Source: Akkermansia sp.
Lineage (GTDB): Bacteria > Verrucomicrobiota > Verrucomicrobiia > Verrucomicrobiales > Akkermansiaceae
Direction: 5' to 3'
NCBI GenBank assembly: GCA_017415555.1
Contig: JAFQGF010000037.1
Location: forward strand, 1 to 64,000
DNA: 64,000 nt
The position numbers and the translations under genes are program-made. Below the pieces are notes generated by a model. The model did no database searches. It worked only from the letters and a program-made list of their open reading frames with translations, and had not been told where the DNA came from. Below, piece by piece: positions 8,673 to 38,154 of the stretch (within the stretch, counting starts at the first letter, position 1; the number at the start of each line of letters is the position of its first letter).

Positions 8673-10085
8673 TTAGTGGATGTTGAATACCTCGCGGGGG
8701 TCGGCCACGGTGCCGGTTACGGCAGCGGCGGCAGCCATCAGCGGGCTCATGAGCAGGGTGCGCCCGGTGGGGCTGCCCTGGCGGCCTTTGAAGTTGCGGT
8801 TGCTGGTGCTGGCGCAAATCTGGTCGCCTTTCAGCTTGTCCGGGTTCATGGCCAAGCACATGGAGCAACCGGCCAGACGCCATTCGAAGCCGGCGGCGCG
8901 GAAGATATCGGCAATGCCCTCGGCTTCACACTGACGGGCGGTCTCCTGAGAGCCGGGCACAGCCAGAGCTTTTACGCCGGCTGCAACCTTGTGGCCTTTG
9001 AGCAGGGGCGCCACGGCTCGGAAGTCTGAAATGCGCCCGTTGGTGCAGGAGCCAATGAACACTACATTGATGGGCATGCCTTTCAGGGGTTGTCCCGCCT
9101 GTAGCTGCATGTATTCCAGCGCGGTCTGGCGGGCTTTGCGCGTTTCGTTGTCGGGGGCGTCCTCGGGGGAGGGAACGGTTCCGTTGATGCCTATGCTCAT
9201 GTCCGGCGAGATACCCCAGGTGACGGTCGGCTCTATGTCCGCTGCGTCAAAAATCACCACGTCATCGTACACGGCATCTGTATCGCTTGCAAAACTCTTC
9301 CATCGCTCCACAGCGGCGTCCCATGCAGCACCCTTGGGGGCATAGGGGCGCCCCTTCAGGTAGGCAAAGGTCTTTTCGTCCGGGTTCACATAGCCGCAGC
9401 GGGCGGCCCCCTCGATGGCGAGGTTGCAGAGTGTCAGTCGGCCGTCCATCTCCATGTTCTCAATGGCAGACCCGCCAAACTCGTAGGCGTAGCCCAGTCC
9501 GCCATCTGCGCCGAGCTTCCCGATGATGTAGAGAGCCACGTCCTTAGCCGTTACGCCGGGGCGCAAGCTCCCCTCCACGCGCACGTTGCGTACTTTGAGT
9601 GGAAGCATGGCGAGGGTCTGTGTGGCCAGCACATCTCGCACCTGGGTGGTGCCGATGCCCATGGCTATGGAGCCCACAGCACCGTGAGTGGCGGTGTGGG
9701 AGTCACCGCACACAATCGTCATCCCCGGCTGGGTGATGCCCAGCTCCGGCCCGATGGAGTGTACAATGCCCTGATTACCCGTGGGAAGGTCAAACAACCG
9801 TATTCCGGCACCCTCGCAGTTGCTGCGCAGTGCATTGAGCATGGTCTGTGCCCGAGGGTCGGCAAAAGGCTCTGCCTGATTATCCGTGGGGATGATGTGA
9901 TCCACCGTGGCGAAGGTGCGCTCTGGGTGTAATACAGGTAGGTTCAGCTCCCGCAGCATGGCAAAGGCCTGCGGGGAGGTCACTTCGTGAACAAAATGTG
10001 TGGCTATAAAGAGCTGCGTACGACCATCCGGCAGAATGCCTACCGTATGTGCGTCCCAAACTTTCCTGTATAATGTCTTACCCAT
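8673..10085 (-). CDS. leuC: 3-isopropylmalate dehydratase large subunit
   Basis: 470 residues. Aconitase-fold catalytic subunit holding a [4Fe-4S] cluster; with LeuD it isomerises 2-isopropylmalate in leucine biosynthesis. Visible motifs are [20 protein letters not shown] at the N-terminus, [32 protein letters not shown] (first cluster Cys) and [11 protein letters not shown] (remaining cluster Cys). An upstream in-frame ATG exists at 10109, but it would lie in the promoter spacer. The ATG at 10085 ([13 protein letters not shown]) matches the family N-terminus. Confidence 0.96.
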
Positions 10086-10099
10086 GGTTTGCAAACGAC

Positions 10100-10128
10100 A
10101 GTCTACCATTGCGTGCGCGAGGCGTCAA
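10100..10128 (-). promoter_or_regulatory. Promoter of leuCD with short leader
   Basis: Minus strand TTGACG, 17-nt spacer, TAGACT. The -10 box ends 14 nt before the leuC ATG. Confidence 0.7.
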
Positions 10129-10176
10129 GATAACATGCCGGAGAATGACACAGAAGGTGGATTCTGAATACGCTGC

Positions 10177-10210
10177 AAAAAAAACAACAGCCTGCGTAGT
10201 GCAGGCTGTT
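10177..10210 (-). terminator. Rho-independent terminator of mdh
   Basis: Perfect 10-bp stem AACAGCCTGC/GCAGGCTGTT with a 5-nt loop. On the minus strand it is followed by eight T residues (the A run 10177-10184 on the plus strand). Confidence 0.92.
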
Positions 10211-10238
10211 GCAGAACAAGGTTGGGTATGCCCGGCTT

Positions 10239-11219
10239 TTAGCCAAGCACCTCGGCGCGCTCCTCGAGCAGCTCGGCGCAGGAGGCGTCAATCTTGCCGC
10301 GGGAGAACTCGTCGATGGGCAGGCCCTCCACGATGGTGAGGGTGCCGTCTGCCTCCGTGCGGCTGGGCATGGAGCAGATGATACCCTCGGGCAGGCCGTA
10401 TTTGGTGCCGTCGCTGTAGCGGGCCACGGAGTACCAGTCACCCTCAGCTGTGGGAGTGGTGAGGTTCTTCACGGTCATGAGGGCAGCATTCGCTGCGGAA
10501 GCGGCGGAGGAAAGACCGCGGGCGGCAATGATGGCGGCACCACGCTGCTGGACGGTCTTAATGAAGTCTGTCTTAAGCCACTCGGAGTCCGTGATGACCT
10601 CGGTAGCGGGCTTGCCGCAAATCTTGGCGTTGGTGAAGTCCGGGTACTGTGTGGCGGAGTGGTTGCCCCAGATGGTCATGTTGGTCACATCGGACACGGC
10701 CACGCCGGCCTTGGCGGCAAGCTGAGCCTTGGCACGGTACTCATCGAGCATGGTCATGGCGAAGAAGTTCTCCTTGGGCATGCCGGTGGCGTTGTGCATG
10801 GCAATCAGGCAGTTGGTGTTGCAGGGGTTGCCCACCACGAATACCTTGCAGCCGGGAGCGGCATTCTCGGCAATGGCCTTGCCCTGGCCCACGAATACCT
10901 TGCCGTTGATGGAAAGAAGATCCTTACGCTCCATGCCGGCCTTGCGGGGCACAGAACCCACGAGCATGCACCAATCGGCGTTCTTGAAGGCCACGGTGGG
11001 ATCATCGGTGGGAACAATCTCCTGCACCAGCGGGAAGGCGCAGTCCTCCAGCTCCATCACCACGCCTTTCAGCTTGTCCAGGCAGGGGGTGATTTCCAGA
11101 AGCTTCAGGATAACGGGCTGGTCGGCACCCAGCATTTCGCCGGCTGCAATGCGGAACAGCAGAGAGTATGCAATATTGCCGGCAGCGCCGGTCACGGTCA
11201 CGGTTACGGGTTTCTTCAT
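10239..11219 (-). CDS. mdh: Malate dehydrogenase
   Basis: 326-residue NAD-dependent enzyme of the TCA cycle that interconverts malate and oxaloacetate, of the cytosolic/type 2 class. Visible are the Rossmann motif [20 protein letters not shown], the ELEDCAFPL region, the substrate-loop arginines around [28 protein letters not shown], and the catalytic His in [13 protein letters not shown]. Length is normal. It is a single-gene unit with its own promoter and terminator. Confidence 0.96.
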
Positions 11220-11228
11220 AACGCAGCA

Positions 11229-11257
11229 ATTATGCCTGTTTGTGGGCGTAAAGTCAA
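11229..11257 (-). promoter_or_regulatory. Promoter of mdh, near-leaderless
   Basis: Minus strand TTGACT, 17-nt spacer, CATAAT. The -10 box ends 9 nt before the ATG. Confidence 0.75.
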
Positions 11258-11354
11258 CCCCGAAATCCGTTCACTGTCGCGCTTTTTTTGCCTGTAATGT
11301 ATATTTTAAACTTAGAGTAGTATCGAACTTTCTCGGGAAAAGGCGTGTTTCTCA

Positions 11355-11383
11355 TTGACAAAGCTGCCGCTAGGGGGTATGAT
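11355..11383 (+). promoter_or_regulatory. Promoter of the sua5/tsaC gene; it decides the start codon
   Basis: Perfect TTGACA, 17-nt spacer, TATGAT. Two in-frame ATGs at 11379 and 11382 lie inside the -10 box, so the first usable ATG is 11391, 7 nt beyond the box. Confidence 0.78.
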
Positions 11384-11390
11384 GACGCGC

Positions 11391-12437
11391 ATGGAAACAC
11401 GAGTGATGGAGGTAGACCCGCTGGAGGACTGCCGCAGTGTGTATAAAGAGGCAGCCGGCGTGCTGGCGGATGGTGGGTTGGTAGCCATCCCCACAGAGAC
11501 AGTGTACGGCTTGGGGGCGGATGCTCTCAACACGGAGGCCGTGGCGAATGTGTTTGCCGTGAAGGCGAGGCCGAGTTTTGATCCGCTTATCTGCCATTTT
11601 GCACGGGCAAAGGACATTAAGGACTACACGGAGGTGCCGGCTGAGCTACAGGAGCTGGTGGATAAACTGGCAAAAGAGTTCTGGCCGGGGCCAATGACGC
11701 TGGTGCTGCCGCGCAAATCCATCATTCCCGACATTGTGACGAGTGGCTTGCCCACCGTGGCCTGCCGTGTGCCGAGCCATGAGGTGATGCGTGGAGTGGC
11801 GCGTGCGCTGGAGCATCCCATCGCAGCACCCAGTGCGAATCGTTTTGGCCACATATCTCCCACGAGTGCTCAGGCTGTGGTGAAGGAGCTAGGGGGCAGT
11901 ATTCCGCTGGTGCTGGATGCCGGTGCCTGTTCGGAAGGTCTGGAGAGCACGATATTGATGCCTTGTCTGGATGAGAAGGGGAAGCCTGCCGTGCGCCTGC
12001 TGCGCGAGGGCCCCATCACCCGCGAAAAACTGCGTGGTATCTGCCGTGTGCTCAAACCCGGTAAGGGGAAGGTTGCTGATGATGTATTGCCCAGTGCTCC
12101 CGGCCAGTTGAAGAGCCATTATGCACCCGGAAAGCCGCTCATGCTCTGGAATCCCCGCGAGGCGTTTGTGCCGGAGGCGGGGGTGAGCTATGGCCTCATC
12201 AGTTACGAAGGTGAGTCCGAGCTGGCGCAGCAGGACTGCTGGACTGAGGTGATGCCGCTTTCTCCGGGGAGTGGGCGTCTGGCCGAGGCTGCCGTGCGCC
12301 TGTTTGCGGTGATGCGTGCCATGGATGAGAACGAGGATGTGCAGGTGATTGTGGCAGAAGAGTTGCCCGAGACGGGGCTGGGATGTGCCATGATGGATCG
12401 CCTGCGCCGTGCTGCGGCCAAACGAGAGGAGGTCTAA
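11391..12437 (+). CDS. L-threonylcarbamoyladenylate synthase (Sua5/YrdC/YwlC family)
   Basis: 348 residues. It makes threonylcarbamoyl-AMP from Thr, bicarbonate and ATP for the t6A37 tRNA modification; the partner transferase TsaD is encoded at 27790-28842. The YrdC domain (residues 15-200) contains AIPTETVYGLGADALN, KARPSFDPLI, FWPGPMTLVLPR and PSANRFGHISPTSA. A C-terminal Sua5 domain (about 230-348) beginning SAPGQLKSHYAPGKPL makes this the long Sua5 type rather than short TsaC. The start is chosen from the promoter position. Four genes follow on the same strand, the first after only 5 nt. Confidence 0.93.
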   Translation: METRVMEVDPLEDCRSVYKEAAGVLADGGLVAIPTETVYGLGADALNTEAVANVFAVKARPSFDPLICHFARAKDIKDYTEVPAELQELVDKLAKEFWPGPMTLVLPRKSIIPDIVTSGLPTVACRVPSHEVMRGVARALEHPIAAPSANRFGHISPTSAQAVVKELGGSIPLVLDAGACSEGLESTILMPCLDEKGKPAVRLLREGPITREKLRGICRVLKPGKGKVADDVLPSAPGQLKSHYAPGKPLMLWNPREAFVPEAGVSYGLISYEGESELAQQDCWTEVMPLSPGSGRLAEAAVRLFAVMRAMDENEDVQVIVAEELPETGLGCAMMDRLRRAAAKREEV

Positions 12438-34521: not shown

Positions 34522-34613
34522 TCCTTTAGTGTTATTTGTCCGGAGATTATCTCATCTGGAAAGCGATACAATGCTTTCTCATCTGCATAGACGGCAATAT
34601 AGGTTGCGACGAA

Positions 34614-34646
34614 TTTCCCCGGGTATGCCTCGCATACCCGGGGAAA
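34614..34646 (-). terminator. Perfect 14-bp hairpin after the capsid gene
   Basis: TTTCCCCGGGTATG/CATACCCGGGGAAA with a 5-nt loop. No T run follows on either strand, so it may cap the capsid mRNA rather than terminate by the classic mechanism. Confidence 0.55.
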
Positions 34647-34698
34647 CCCATATGAATCAATAATATCAACTAATCGTCATGAACATCCGGATTCGGAA

Positions 34699-35610
34699 TT
34701 AATTTTCCGAGCAGAGGATTTTCACAAAAGCTTCTTCCTGCAGACGGGTGGCGCCGCAAGCGAATTTGGCTCGAATTTGCAGAGCCTCATCGAGGTCGTC
34801 GCGCACGGAGAGCTTGACTTTAAAGTCCTCCCAGAGACCGAACTGAGCCTTGCTCTTGACCCAGGCGAGGCAGGAGCGAGTGCCGCTGCTGTTGACGGGG
34901 AGTTGCTCTGTACGGATGATGCGGAAGCCGAGGAAGGTTTCCACCTTTCCTTCCAGAAGAGCACGCGCGGTGTTGTAGTCGAAGCTGCCTACCTCGGGTT
35001 CGCGGAGCAAAGCTGCAATCTGCGAGGCGGTGCAGGCCAGCACCAGCTCATCGCCATAGGCGCGGCGTTCCTCGTTCCAGGCTTCTGCTTTCTGCAGCAT
35101 GGCGAGTGCCTTGCGGAGTTTGGCGAGAGTGAGGTTGCTATCGGTGGCGGAGCCGGTCTCCACATAGTCGGAGGGGATGACCTGATTGCCATCGAAGGGA
35201 ACAGCCTCGGTGCCGTTTTCGCCGGCGTAGCAGGTGCCGAGGAAGGCATCGAGCATAACGGCATCCATGCAGCGGCCGGCTGCAGCGCGCAGACCTTCGA
35301 TGGTTTTGCTGACGGGGACGTCGATGTTGGCGAGCTTTTTGGCGTCGAATTCATCAAAGCCGATGGCTTTGGTGAAAATCTTGGGATAGAGGACACGGCG
35401 GGTGGTGGGTGCTTCATTCAGCACGGTGGACTGCATACGGCTGGTTTTCTCGTCGAAAGAGAGGAGGCCATACTGGTCGAAAGCCACCATCTTGCCGGAG
35501 AGTCCGGACTCGACCGTGACGTATTTTTCGAGACGGGAAGCTTCCTGCTGGAGGTAGGAACCCCATTTCTCGCTGTACTTAATCTGATAATTCTGAGCTA
35601 TTTCAGCCAT
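34699..35610 (-). CDS. Phage major capsid protein (orphan)
   Basis: 303 residues starting MAEIAQNYQIKYSEKWGSYL. The succession QQEASRLEKYVTVESGLSGK, MVAFDQYG, APTTRRVLYPKIF, KLANIDVPVSKTIEGLRAAA and MDAVMLDAFLGTCYAGENG matches the phage capsid type seen in tailed phages, with a long helix, an E-loop-like region and a late conserved block IAALLREPEVGSFDYNTARA followed by FLGFRIIRTEQLP. The reading frame is complete. No portal, terminase, protease, scaffold or tail gene lies nearby, so the gene stands alone between a metabolic gene and a DNA methyltransferase. The family call is from sequence memory and should be checked by structure prediction. Domesticated or relic prophage gene are the two explanations. 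Confidence 0.75.
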   Translation of the reverse strand: MAEIAQNYQIKYSEKWGSYLQQEASRLEKYVTVESGLSGKMVAFDQYGLLSFDEKTSRMQSTVLNEAPTTRRVLYPKIFTKAIGFDEFDAKKLANIDVPVSKTIEGLRAAAGRCMDAVMLDAFLGTCYAGENGTEAVPFDGNQVIPSDYVETGSATDSNLTLAKLRKALAMLQKAEAWNEERRAYGDELVLACTASQIAALLREPEVGSFDYNTARALLEGKVETFLGFRIIRTEQLPVNSSGTRSCLAWVKSKAQFGLWEDFKVKLSVRDDLDEALQIRAKFACGATRLQEEAFVKILCSEN

Positions 35611-35618
35611 GGTAATGT

Positions 35619-35849
35619 ATGTATTGTGTAATTGTTTGCTTGCTTGTGGCAAACCGGCTGCAACAGATTACCCATGCGGGGTCAGGCCGTGTGGTGCGGG
35701 TGGGCTGTTCGTGTGCCGAATTGGAGCTTCCCCGGCGCTCTTGCCGTGTACAGGGTTACACAAATTGGCCGGAATGTCAGCACAAAAAGTGGCATCCGCC
35801 GGACCTTTGTCAGTTTATCGACGCTCTAGTAGATACAATAACTCTTTAA
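35619..35849 (+). CDS. Possible small Cys-rich protein
   Basis: 76 codons in the gap between the capsid and methyltransferase genes, on the opposite strand. The second half, VGCSCAELELPRRSCRVQGY then TNWPECQHKKWHPPDLC, has a Cys/His spacing that could bind zinc. It overlaps the end of the methyltransferase gene by about 35 nt. Coding status is doubtful; no promoter or ribosome binding site is evident. Confidence 0.25.
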   Translation: MYCVIVCLLVANRLQQITHAGSGRVVRVGCSCAELELPRRSCRVQGYTNWPECQHKKWHPPDLCQFIDALVDTITL

Positions 35850-36909
35850 CCGTCAATGCTCGGTTTTGCAGATTGCGGCAACCTCGGAAGGTGGCGTATT
35901 CCTGCTCGATGAGGCTTACTTTCCAATCCGGCTCGAGGAGTTGCTGCATATCCCGGGGGCAGATGAAACCTTCCGAGTTGTAGGAAAGCAGCACAAAGGG
36001 AGCCCGGATGGCAGACAGTAGTTTCAGCAGAGCCTCTGCCACGTGGCGGCGGGAGTTGTAGGCGGAGTGGTTCCACCCCTCAGGGATTCCGGAAACCGGG
36101 GAGAGGCGTTCCGGTTTGCGGTAATCCAGCAGGAAGTTGAGCATGAAGTAATTGCTGGCGTAGGGGTGTTGATTGTATGGCGGGTCCAGGTAGGCAACAT
36201 CCAGCTCGGGGATGCTGTGGGCGGCGGCCGTAGCATCCTGCTGCAGAATGTGACAGCAACACTCAAAATGGGAGAATACCGGCAGTGGAAGTCGGATGTC
36301 TGCCAGAATGCGCCGCAGGGCGTTGCGCCCTTCACCTCCGAATTGGCCGATGCCATTGCGGTTTTTGTAAAAGCCCTTGAATACGCCGGAGGTGTTGGTG
36401 TGGATAGAGGCTTCGACGAGGAGGGGGGCCAGGAAGAAGTGTTGAAGCGGCTCCGGCATGGCTGCAATGGCGAGGCGGGCTGTGTCCAGATAGATGGCAT
36501 TGCGGCGAGTGTAGAAGACGCGTTCGCCGGGACGTATGGCGGCATCGTTCTGCGGGGCGTACAGCTCTGCCACCAGCCCGGGGGCCCATTCCTGTTCTAT
36601 GCGGGCCTGCAAGTCTTTGTGCAGCTGTTGCAGAGAGAGGGGGGCAGTTTCGCTGCGGTTGCTCAGATAGCACCGGTTGAGCACGGCCGAGTAGTGCTCC
36701 AGATCGTTGCTCCACAGTTCGCTGCAATGTTGCTTCAGGTAGCGGCTTACAACGCCGGAGCCGGCAAAGGCATCCAGCGCGCGCAGTTTGCGCCCGCCGA
36801 GCCGTTGCTGTACGGCCTGGATGCCTTTTCCTATGAGCGGCAGCAATTTTCGCTTATTACCCAGATAGGTGATAAGCTGAGTGTTCAGGTATGCTGCGTT
36901 TTCTTCCAT
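35815..36909 (-). CDS. D12-class (Dam-like) N6-adenine DNA methyltransferase
   Basis: 364 residues. SAM-binding motif I region RALDAFAGSGVVSRYLK (about residues 43-59), catalytic motif IV DVAYLDPPYNQHPYASNYFM, and a C-terminal strand/helix part (PFVLLSYNSEGFICP). The N-terminal TQLITYLGNKRKLLPLIGKG is the classic D12 opening. No restriction endonuclease is adjacent, so an orphan or phage-borne methylase is likely. It sits between the capsid gene and the scarred tRNA-Gly locus, consistent with phage ancestry. The recognition site is not predictable. Confidence 0.9.
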   Translation of the reverse strand: MEENAAYLNTQLITYLGNKRKLLPLIGKGIQAVQQRLGGRKLRALDAFAGSGVVSRYLKQHCSELWSNDLEHYSAVLNRCYLSNRSETAPLSLQQLHKDLQARIEQEWAPGLVAELYAPQNDAAIRPGERVFYTRRNAIYLDTARLAIAAMPEPLQHFFLAPLLVEASIHTNTSGVFKGFYKNRNGIGQFGGEGRNALRRILADIRLPLPVFSHFECCCHILQQDATAAAHSIPELDVAYLDPPYNQHPYASNYFMLNFLLDYRKPERLSPVSGIPEGWNHSAYNSRRHVAEALLKLLSAIRAPFVLLSYNSEGFICPRDMQQLLEPDWKVSLIEQEYATFRGCRNLQNRALTVKELLYLLERR

Positions 36910-36925
36910 TGCTGCTTACTGAATA

Positions 36926-36978
36926 CAAAAAAGCCCCTCAGATGAGGGGCTTCAAAGCGGGCGATGGGATTCTACCCA
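36926..36978 (-). other. Duplicated 3' end of tRNA-Gly plus its terminator (attachment-site-like scar)
   Basis: The hairpin AAGCCCCTCAGATGAGGGGCTT at 36931-36952 with a T run on the minus strand (36926-36932), and the tRNA 3' segment AAAGCGGGCGATGGGATTC at 36954-36972, are an almost exact copy of 37101-37144. A direct repeat of tRNA 3' end plus terminator is the usual footprint of integrase-mediated insertion at a tRNA gene. Confidence 0.7.
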
Positions 36979-37047
36979 TTCCGCCAAGCCCTCCCATTGG
37001 GTCGGGTTCCCTCGCAGAAGTGTCTGCTCGGCTTGTCGGCAAGTTGC

Positions 37048-37090
37048 TCGCGAACTCGCACCTTGCCCACTCGTCGTGGGTTCGAATCCC
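37048..37090 (+). other. Inverted, internally deleted tRNA-Gly fragment
   Basis: GTCGTGGGTTCGAATCCC at 37073-37090 is identical to the T-arm region of the tRNA-Gly, and ACCTTGCC at 37060-37067 to its anticodon region, but in the opposite orientation to the intact gene. Four nt are missing between the two, and the acceptor end is replaced. Confidence 0.6.
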
Positions 37091-37098
37091 TTGATGAG

Positions 37099-37124
37099 TA
37101 AAGCCCCTCAGATGAGGGGCTTTT
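37099..37124 (-). terminator. Terminator of tRNA-Gly
   Basis: AAGCCCCTCA-GATGAGGGGCTT hairpin immediately downstream of the tRNA on the minus strand. Its T run has been shortened to TTTA compared with the copy at 36926-36952. Confidence 0.7.
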
Positions 37125-37127
37125 AAA

Positions 37128-37199
37128 AGCGGGCGATGGGATTCGAACCCACGACATCAACCTTGGCAAGGTTGCGCTCTACCACTGAGCTACGCCCGC
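37128..37199 (-). tRNA. tRNA-Gly (anticodon GCC)
   Basis: 72 nt on the minus strand. It begins GCGGGCGTAGCTCAGTGGTA, has anticodon loop TTGCCAA, T-arm GGGTTCGAATCCC, and acceptor end matching GCGGGCG/CGCCCGC. CCA is not encoded. All cloverleaf stems pair. Confidence 0.96.
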
Positions 37200-37633: not shown

Positions 37634-38154
37634 AATAGTCGCACATGTGCCCCAAAGATTGTACTATCGATTGAATAATCAACTCCATTTCCCAACAAGC
37701 CCCCTAAGCTCGACAAATGGAGATTTGTGGAAGTACAATGTACAATGGACAATGTACAAAGTGGAAATTCCGCGAGCCGCAGGCGAGCCTGACTTAGAGC
37801 CCGTACAAGTGCGGGCGGCATATAGTAGCCCACGGTGCAGCCGCGTCAGCGGCGGAACCGTGGGAAAGGGAGAAAATAAATTAGAACCCCACCGGATGGT
37901 GGGGTGGCATAAAGCAATGTAATAAATTGATGCGTGGGCATTATGCCACCCCTCCCTGCGTCGGGGTTCAAATAATTTATTCCTCCCAACCCAGGGCTGA
38001 AGCCCTGGACTACTCTGTGCCGCCTCGCCATGCGGCGAGGCTCCTGAATTTGGCGAGCCTGCGGCTCGCGGAACTTCCACTTTGTACATTGTCCATTGTA
38101 CTTCCACAAATCCCCATTTACCGGGCTAATCTTTGGGACACATGTGCAATAGTC
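37634..38154. mobile_element. 0.5-kb non-autonomous element with long imperfect terminal inverted repeats
   Basis: The left end (CAATAGTCGCACATGTG, CCCCAAAGATT, then AAATGGAGATTTGTGGAAG, ACAATGGACAATGTACAAAG and TCCGCGAGCCGCAGG to about 37795) is found inverted at the right end (about 38056-38154). The left arm carries an extra stretch of roughly 45 bp containing the dispersed motif 37668-37720, and an 8-bp tandem duplication (GTACAATGTACAATG). The core 37780-38075 matches the repeat at 1-310. No transposase is encoded. Its right tip stops 4 nt before the stop codon of the oxidoreductase gene. MITE-like element or compound palindromic repeat. Confidence 0.7.

Follow-up and report, generated by a model that had tools for sequence, protein, structure and literature searches.

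We found that the lone capsid gene in the window, meaning the whole 64,000-nucleotide stretch of Akkermansia sp. DNA that was analysed, probably codes for the major capsid protein of a DNA-packaging particle of podovirus type that has been domesticated and whose genes are spread in pieces over the chromosome. The particle is most likely a gene transfer agent (GTA). We place the probability of this reading, which was reached from sequence, at about 0.77. The features around the gene and the units of the dispersed system are collected in Table 1.

Table 1. Features of the capsid region (window positions) and units of the dispersed system.
Feature	Position	Strand	Basis and remarks
Putative transcription terminator of capsid unit, GC-rich hairpin	34613..34647	-	Sequence; comparable hairpins 3' of capsid at other loci
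Major capsid protein gene, 303 aa, HK97 fold	34699..35610	-	PF19821, phrog_3437; stand-alone unit of dispersed system
Structured leader RNA of capsid transcript (P1, P2/P2b, P3, P4)	35646..35747	-	Covariation; model R1 98.8 bits here
Putative promoter, TGACA-like -35 and AT-rich -10	35746..35780	-	Conserved positions upstream of leader, 37 genomes
D12-class adenine DNA methyltransferase	35815..36909	-	PF02086 E 2.7e-21; neighbour, outside system
tRNA-Gly(GCC), partial 3' duplication at 36930-36977	37128..37199	-	Neighbour, outside system
Unit 1			Capsid alone with structured leader RNA
Unit 2			Adaptor, divergent from orf122-orf67-portal-orf94-scaffold
Unit 3			Fast-evolving protein of 1650-2008 aa, then large terminase
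Unit 4			Tail (nozzle-type) protein, 830 aa; follows unit 3 directly in G022

The first-pass annotation had described a complete major-capsid-like gene standing without portal, terminase or tail genes, and both observations were borne out. The reading frame is intact and is spanned over its full length by the PF19821 (Phage_capsid_2) match (E 1.8e-78), with a second match to the major head protein family phrog_3437 (E 5e-46), and when the whole genome was searched, none of the homologues of portal, terminase or tail fell in the window (contig C50). The closest phage matches were HTVC010P-type podoviruses and similar phages, at 25–36% identity. Structure prediction against HK97-fold capsids and encapsulins, the check that had been proposed, gave a capsid fold. 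The AlphaFold2 (AF2) model, made from 37 sequences, was modest (pLDDT 62, pTM 0.60); Foldseek returned HK97-fold capsids and encapsulins as its best matches (E about 1e-3), and the top rows of the VIA comparison were all HK97-fold capsids or encapsulins (Z up to 11.9), the RcGTA capsid (6tb9) being among the structure matches at Z 8.0. The argument that an intact frame speaks against decay also stood, as the capsid is held intact by selection (dN/dS of 0.01–0.1 in close pairs).

Encapsulins, which are thought to derive from phage capsids (PMC8346489), are among the nearest structures, and in families 1–4 they are likewise HK97-fold proteins of phage origin held by bacteria. These likenesses would fit phage genes that were domesticated independently and without joint function, the capsid now serving as an encapsulin-like shell, a scenario that we consider very improbable. 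An encapsulin is recognised by its shell family and a linked cargo gene (PMC8346489), and neither was found. As a family, the Akkermansia capsids match PF19821 only (37/37 members, with PF25209 and PF13995 in one member each), and none of the 37 matched the encapsulin shell families PF04454, PF05065 and PF08967 in a test that used Pfam profiles and so covers encapsulins other than family 2, which has no Pfam model. No cargo gene is conserved beside the capsid, whose neighbours vary from locus to locus, and unlike encapsulins it has partner portal, terminase and tail genes.

Conservation within the genus had been named as a second check, and it agreed with the purifying selection: a capsid homologue of 59–87% identity was found in 56/76 Akkermansia genomes, mostly at a locus of its own, and the loci examined lay mostly in different chromosomal contexts. 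A mobile single-gene element was considered and rejected. With FeADH, the metabolic host gene adjoining the window capsid, as the comparison, a flank was common to 38 of 325 genome pairs for the capsid and 46 for FeADH, and the distances of the two genes were correlated (Mantel r 0.79, 0/999 permutations). Because its neighbourhood turns over no faster than that of a metabolic gene, and because its distances track host genes, the capsid is judged not to be mobile. Gene order across the genus is generally shuffled. The capsid is flanked by the same genes, which we take to be menA-like, lipoprotein, gluQ-like and transporter genes, in G075 (A. muciniphila-type) and the distant species G067.

The D12 methylase is real (Table 1), but all genes concerned are on the minus strand, so it lies upstream of the capsid and does not follow it as had been thought. 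Among the loci mapped, a homologue was found directly upstream of the capsid in G022 only, and the upstream flank of the window is common to G022, G073 and G080 only. The proposal of a prophage reduced to capsid plus methylase was not upheld, as the methylase adjoins the capsid only in the closest relatives and the real partners lie at other loci. A link between the two genes was likewise rejected, the association being local to close relatives; the methylase and the scarred tRNA-Gly are incidental neighbours. The duplicated 3' end of the tRNA was confirmed: together with the adjoining hairpin it recurs, in one segment exactly (36930-36952 = 37100-37122, 100%) and in another at 89% (36951-36977 vs 37123-37149), and an inverted copy of the T-arm lies at 37073-37090. 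This region (36930-37149) is possibly a scar that an integrated element left behind, one with no relation to the capsid. Further along, at 37720-38115, two long inverted copies around gtacaatggacaatgtacaaagtgg, with ~300 bp between them, resemble a palindromic mobile repeat.

Searches of the genus with the portal, terminase and tail proteins of the Akkermansia prophages L182 and L048 found that nearly all genomes with the capsid also carry a distinct portal, a terminase and a tail protein, one of each, at other loci. The portal matches PF12236 (E 5e-111) and phrog_332, the adaptor phrog_394, the scaffold phrog_3742, the terminase phrog_2 (E 5e-18), and the tail protein phrog_376 (E 6e-134). 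In A. muciniphila MucT the units are unlinked, at 464, 1787, 2208 and 2504 kb, and no homologue of the tail, portal, terminase, adaptor or scaffold genes lies in the 15 kb around the capsid. In the genome that the window comes from, contig C50 carries the capsid, C38 unit 2 and C64 the tail gene; searches of this assembly, which is 79% complete, did not turn up the terminase. The parts identified are structural and packaging genes, lysis and regulatory genes not being among them. The intergenic region of unit 2 was considered as an RNA and rejected, since it holds two small genes. At the loci examined, a protein of 1650-2008 aa is encoded upstream of TerL (e.g. L192 7594-12780(-)); its MucT copy had no Pfam or PHROG match, and it is possibly an ejection protein or cargo.

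Across all parts of the system measured, dN/dS was about 0.01–0.22, and the terminase motifs RQxGxST, ESTHEGG, WDxGxxD, PHD and SHxADA are the same in the dispersed copies as in those of prophages. To our knowledge, tailocins have no capsid, portal or terminase. This counts, as do a portal and a terminase with unchanged ATPase/nuclease motifs that point to DNA packaging, against a domesticated phage-like particle with another purpose, such as competitor killing, effector delivery or the packaging of particular nucleic acid. We regard such a particle as unlikely, though the same structural set would be kept for it, the large pre-terminase protein of no recognisable family could be its cargo or ejection protein, and the traces in the genomes would look alike whether the particle was kept for DNA transfer or for another purpose.

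The prophages L182 (in G075) and L184 (in G082) carry portal, scaffold, capsid, adaptor and tail genes contiguously within about 20 kb, with the capsid between scaffold and adaptor, and their capsids are 59–62% identical to that of the window. These clustered podovirus prophages likely represent the ancestral lineage of the dispersed set. They share with it, as do the HTVC010P-type Pelagibacter podoviruses, a homologous capsid, portal, scaffold, terminase and tail and the same order inside unit 2, whereas the dispersed capsid has left its position between scaffold and adaptor. The small genes flanking the portal also look homologous between dispersed and prophage copies, by reading (e.g. the YDPLDAMRRDAHRE stretch of orf94); the two kinds of copy were separated partly by judgement, from identity and contig. 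Where PF19821 capsids of the order's other genera were examined (L189, L230-L233, L049, L051), they lie beside other phage structural genes, mostly several within 20 kb, and dispersal of the structural genes was seen in Akkermansia only. In a separate locus, L183 (G071:C1:550501-570500), an integrase is followed at about 8735-12000 by an adaptor-like gene and a capsid 74% identical to the dispersed one of MucT, and homologues of the portal, scaffold, terminase and tail were not found in 20 kb; this is possibly a capsid-carrying satellite or a prophage remnant.

The components of the dispersed set have diversified together. Their distance matrices correlate with one another at Mantel r 0.89–0.97 and with FeADH at 0.72–0.92, mostly below the inter-component values (0/999 permutations for both). 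The ClpX tree covers 70 species and is midpoint-rooted; as a single-gene tree, it is not a species tree. On it, capsid, portal, terminase and tail are all absent from 16 genomes in three well-separated places: a group of 13 nested inside carriers (support 0.98), G013 with G028 (0.71), and G097 beside the carrier G015 (0.995). In this scoring, prophage-type hits in G013, G025, G070 and G020, of low identity or on prophage contigs, were counted as absent by judgement. The remaining 54 genomes are complete for the four parts, except for nine, mostly incomplete drafts, that lack a single one. The four loci have thus disappeared jointly on at least three occasions, with no partial loss apart from single gaps in drafts. 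These joint losses of four unlinked loci are the strongest evidence that the four work together, and they also count against independent domestication as a shell.

Other readings also bear on this pattern. Decaying remnants of an old prophage, broken up by rearrangement, would account for the phage order kept inside unit 2 in a genus whose gene order is shuffled in general, but intact frames in dozens of species, strong purifying selection and the co-diversification of the components make this highly improbable. Akkermansia prophages carry capsids about 60% identical, as might be expected if the dispersed capsid were an interference or decoy protein against related phages; we give this hardly any credence, as it gives no reason for the retention of portal, terminase and tail beside the capsid, or for their loss along with it. 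Among the host purposes suggested in the first-pass annotation, gene transfer agrees with the present reading, while the nanocompartment and the decoy leave the co-inheritance and co-loss of portal and packaging motor unexplained. Nor were contiguous structural genes found around the capsid, as an intact prophage would have; the genes are unlinked.

A GTA, as a viriform, is defined by six criteria, four genomic and two experimental (PMC9662315), the experimental ones being that its particles package mostly random host DNA and that this DNA reaches other cells. The capsid, portal, adaptor, scaffold, terminase and tail match tailed-phage families. They are fully endogenised, at three or four unlinked loci per genome. 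By geometry only, the GTA genome would be too big to be packaged in full, as about 1.3 Mb is the shortest arc of the 2.66 Mb MucT chromosome that holds all units. The Mantel correlations (r 0.72–0.97) and the ClpX tree indicate that the set is inherited vertically and has diversified along with its host. Because these four genomic properties were all found, the Akkermansia system, known here from genes alone, is very likely, though unproven, a GTA.

Shortly upstream of the capsid start codon, ~100 nt are conserved. A covariance model (R1) was built from 14 sequences, the structure being drawn after inspection of the sequences. In the alignment of these 14 (A4), 7 pairs change on both sides compared to 2.1 in shuffles (0/500), and in a 40-sequence alignment fitted to the model (A5), there are 11 such pairs and 62 cells compared to 5.8 and 15.9. 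None of 500 shuffles reached the observed value in four of five measures on A4 and in five of five on A5, and sliding the partners by one to three columns destroyed the signal in both. A genus-wide scan with R1 gave 42 matches in 41 genomes, each just upstream of the capsid and none elsewhere. No Rfam family matched the leader at E<=1, and no convincing shared leader was found before the other units (best E 0.19). R1 did not find the leader in the A. muciniphila group, which has a conserved block with similar short motifs in which one pair only changes on both sides. As the RNA fold of the window copy taken singly was no better than shuffles (z 0.5), the claim of a structure rests on covariation.

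Since the promoter-like positions end just before the leader, the capsid transcript probably begins with it. Column 176 of A5 covaries with column 113 (P4, MI 0.50) and with column 11 (5' strand, MI 0.46), which suggests either two competing pairings, as in a helix switch, or a base triple, and shared ancestry may inflate these values. Setting or coupling capsid synthesis is the probable role of the leader, which might act through autoregulation and possibly senses capsid or a growth signal through two alternative pairings. In the mechanism that we propose, the units would be expressed together in some cells, scaffold and portal would nucleate capsid shells, the terminase would fill these with host DNA by headful packaging, and a short tail would be added to give a particle that delivers DNA to kin. 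A capsid moved out of its phage position between scaffold and adaptor, with its own promoter and leader, could then be made in the hundreds of copies that a head would need, compared to about a dozen for the portal. On balance, we favour a functional GTA in Akkermansia, the human gut symbiont A. muciniphila included, with fully dispersed core genes and capsid dosage set by a dedicated new leader RNA.

Two known systems offer useful comparisons. The structural genes of RcGTA include a core cluster, and its tail is siphovirus-like. The Akkermansia set, unlike it, has no core cluster, and its parts are podovirus-like (phrog_332 connector, tail tubular proteins); it resembles RcGTA in vertical inheritance, an HK97 capsid and the spread over several loci, of which RcGTA (Rhodogtaviriformidae) has five (PMC9662315). 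FpGTA of Faecalibacterium is a podovirus-like GTA of a gut bacterium whose particles have been shown (PMC12946183). It is likewise encoded at more than one locus and includes terminase, portal, scaffold and capsid, a likeness drawn from the two gene sets as described. In FpGTA, these four genes form a single operon of 10.5 kb, and a second operon lies, in one strain, ~125 kb from it, whereas in Akkermansia, where the system is known only as genes, the core lies on three or four unlinked loci with the capsid alone behind its leader RNA.

No report of a GTA in Akkermansia was found in the open literature searched, and the capsid is not named in the papers covered on the proteome and transcriptome of A. 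muciniphila. In 2011, the paper describing the MucT genome gave a list of nine phage-related genes and read them as traces of earlier infection (PMC3048395). The 'phage production' genes Amuc_1355, 1936 and 1335 rise at the end of growth (PMC11480725), and two of them are among those nine tags (PMC3048395); no match between the three and the dispersed units could be made.

What is new here is a probable GTA with a dispersed structural core: nothing remains of a core cluster, and the capsid gene forms a unit by itself behind an RNA leader of its own. If the reading is true, it would be, as far as we know, the first GTA in Verrucomicrobiota, extending the range of GTAs to that phylum and indicating that a GTA can work without any core cluster. 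Dosage control of unlinked genes would become testable, and looking for phage structural genes that are unlinked yet share their retention and loss would serve as a recipe for finding other such systems. Akkermansia, a widely studied gut symbiont and candidate probiotic, would have an inherited machine that moves its own DNA between cells, one overlooked because its genes resemble scattered phage scraps.
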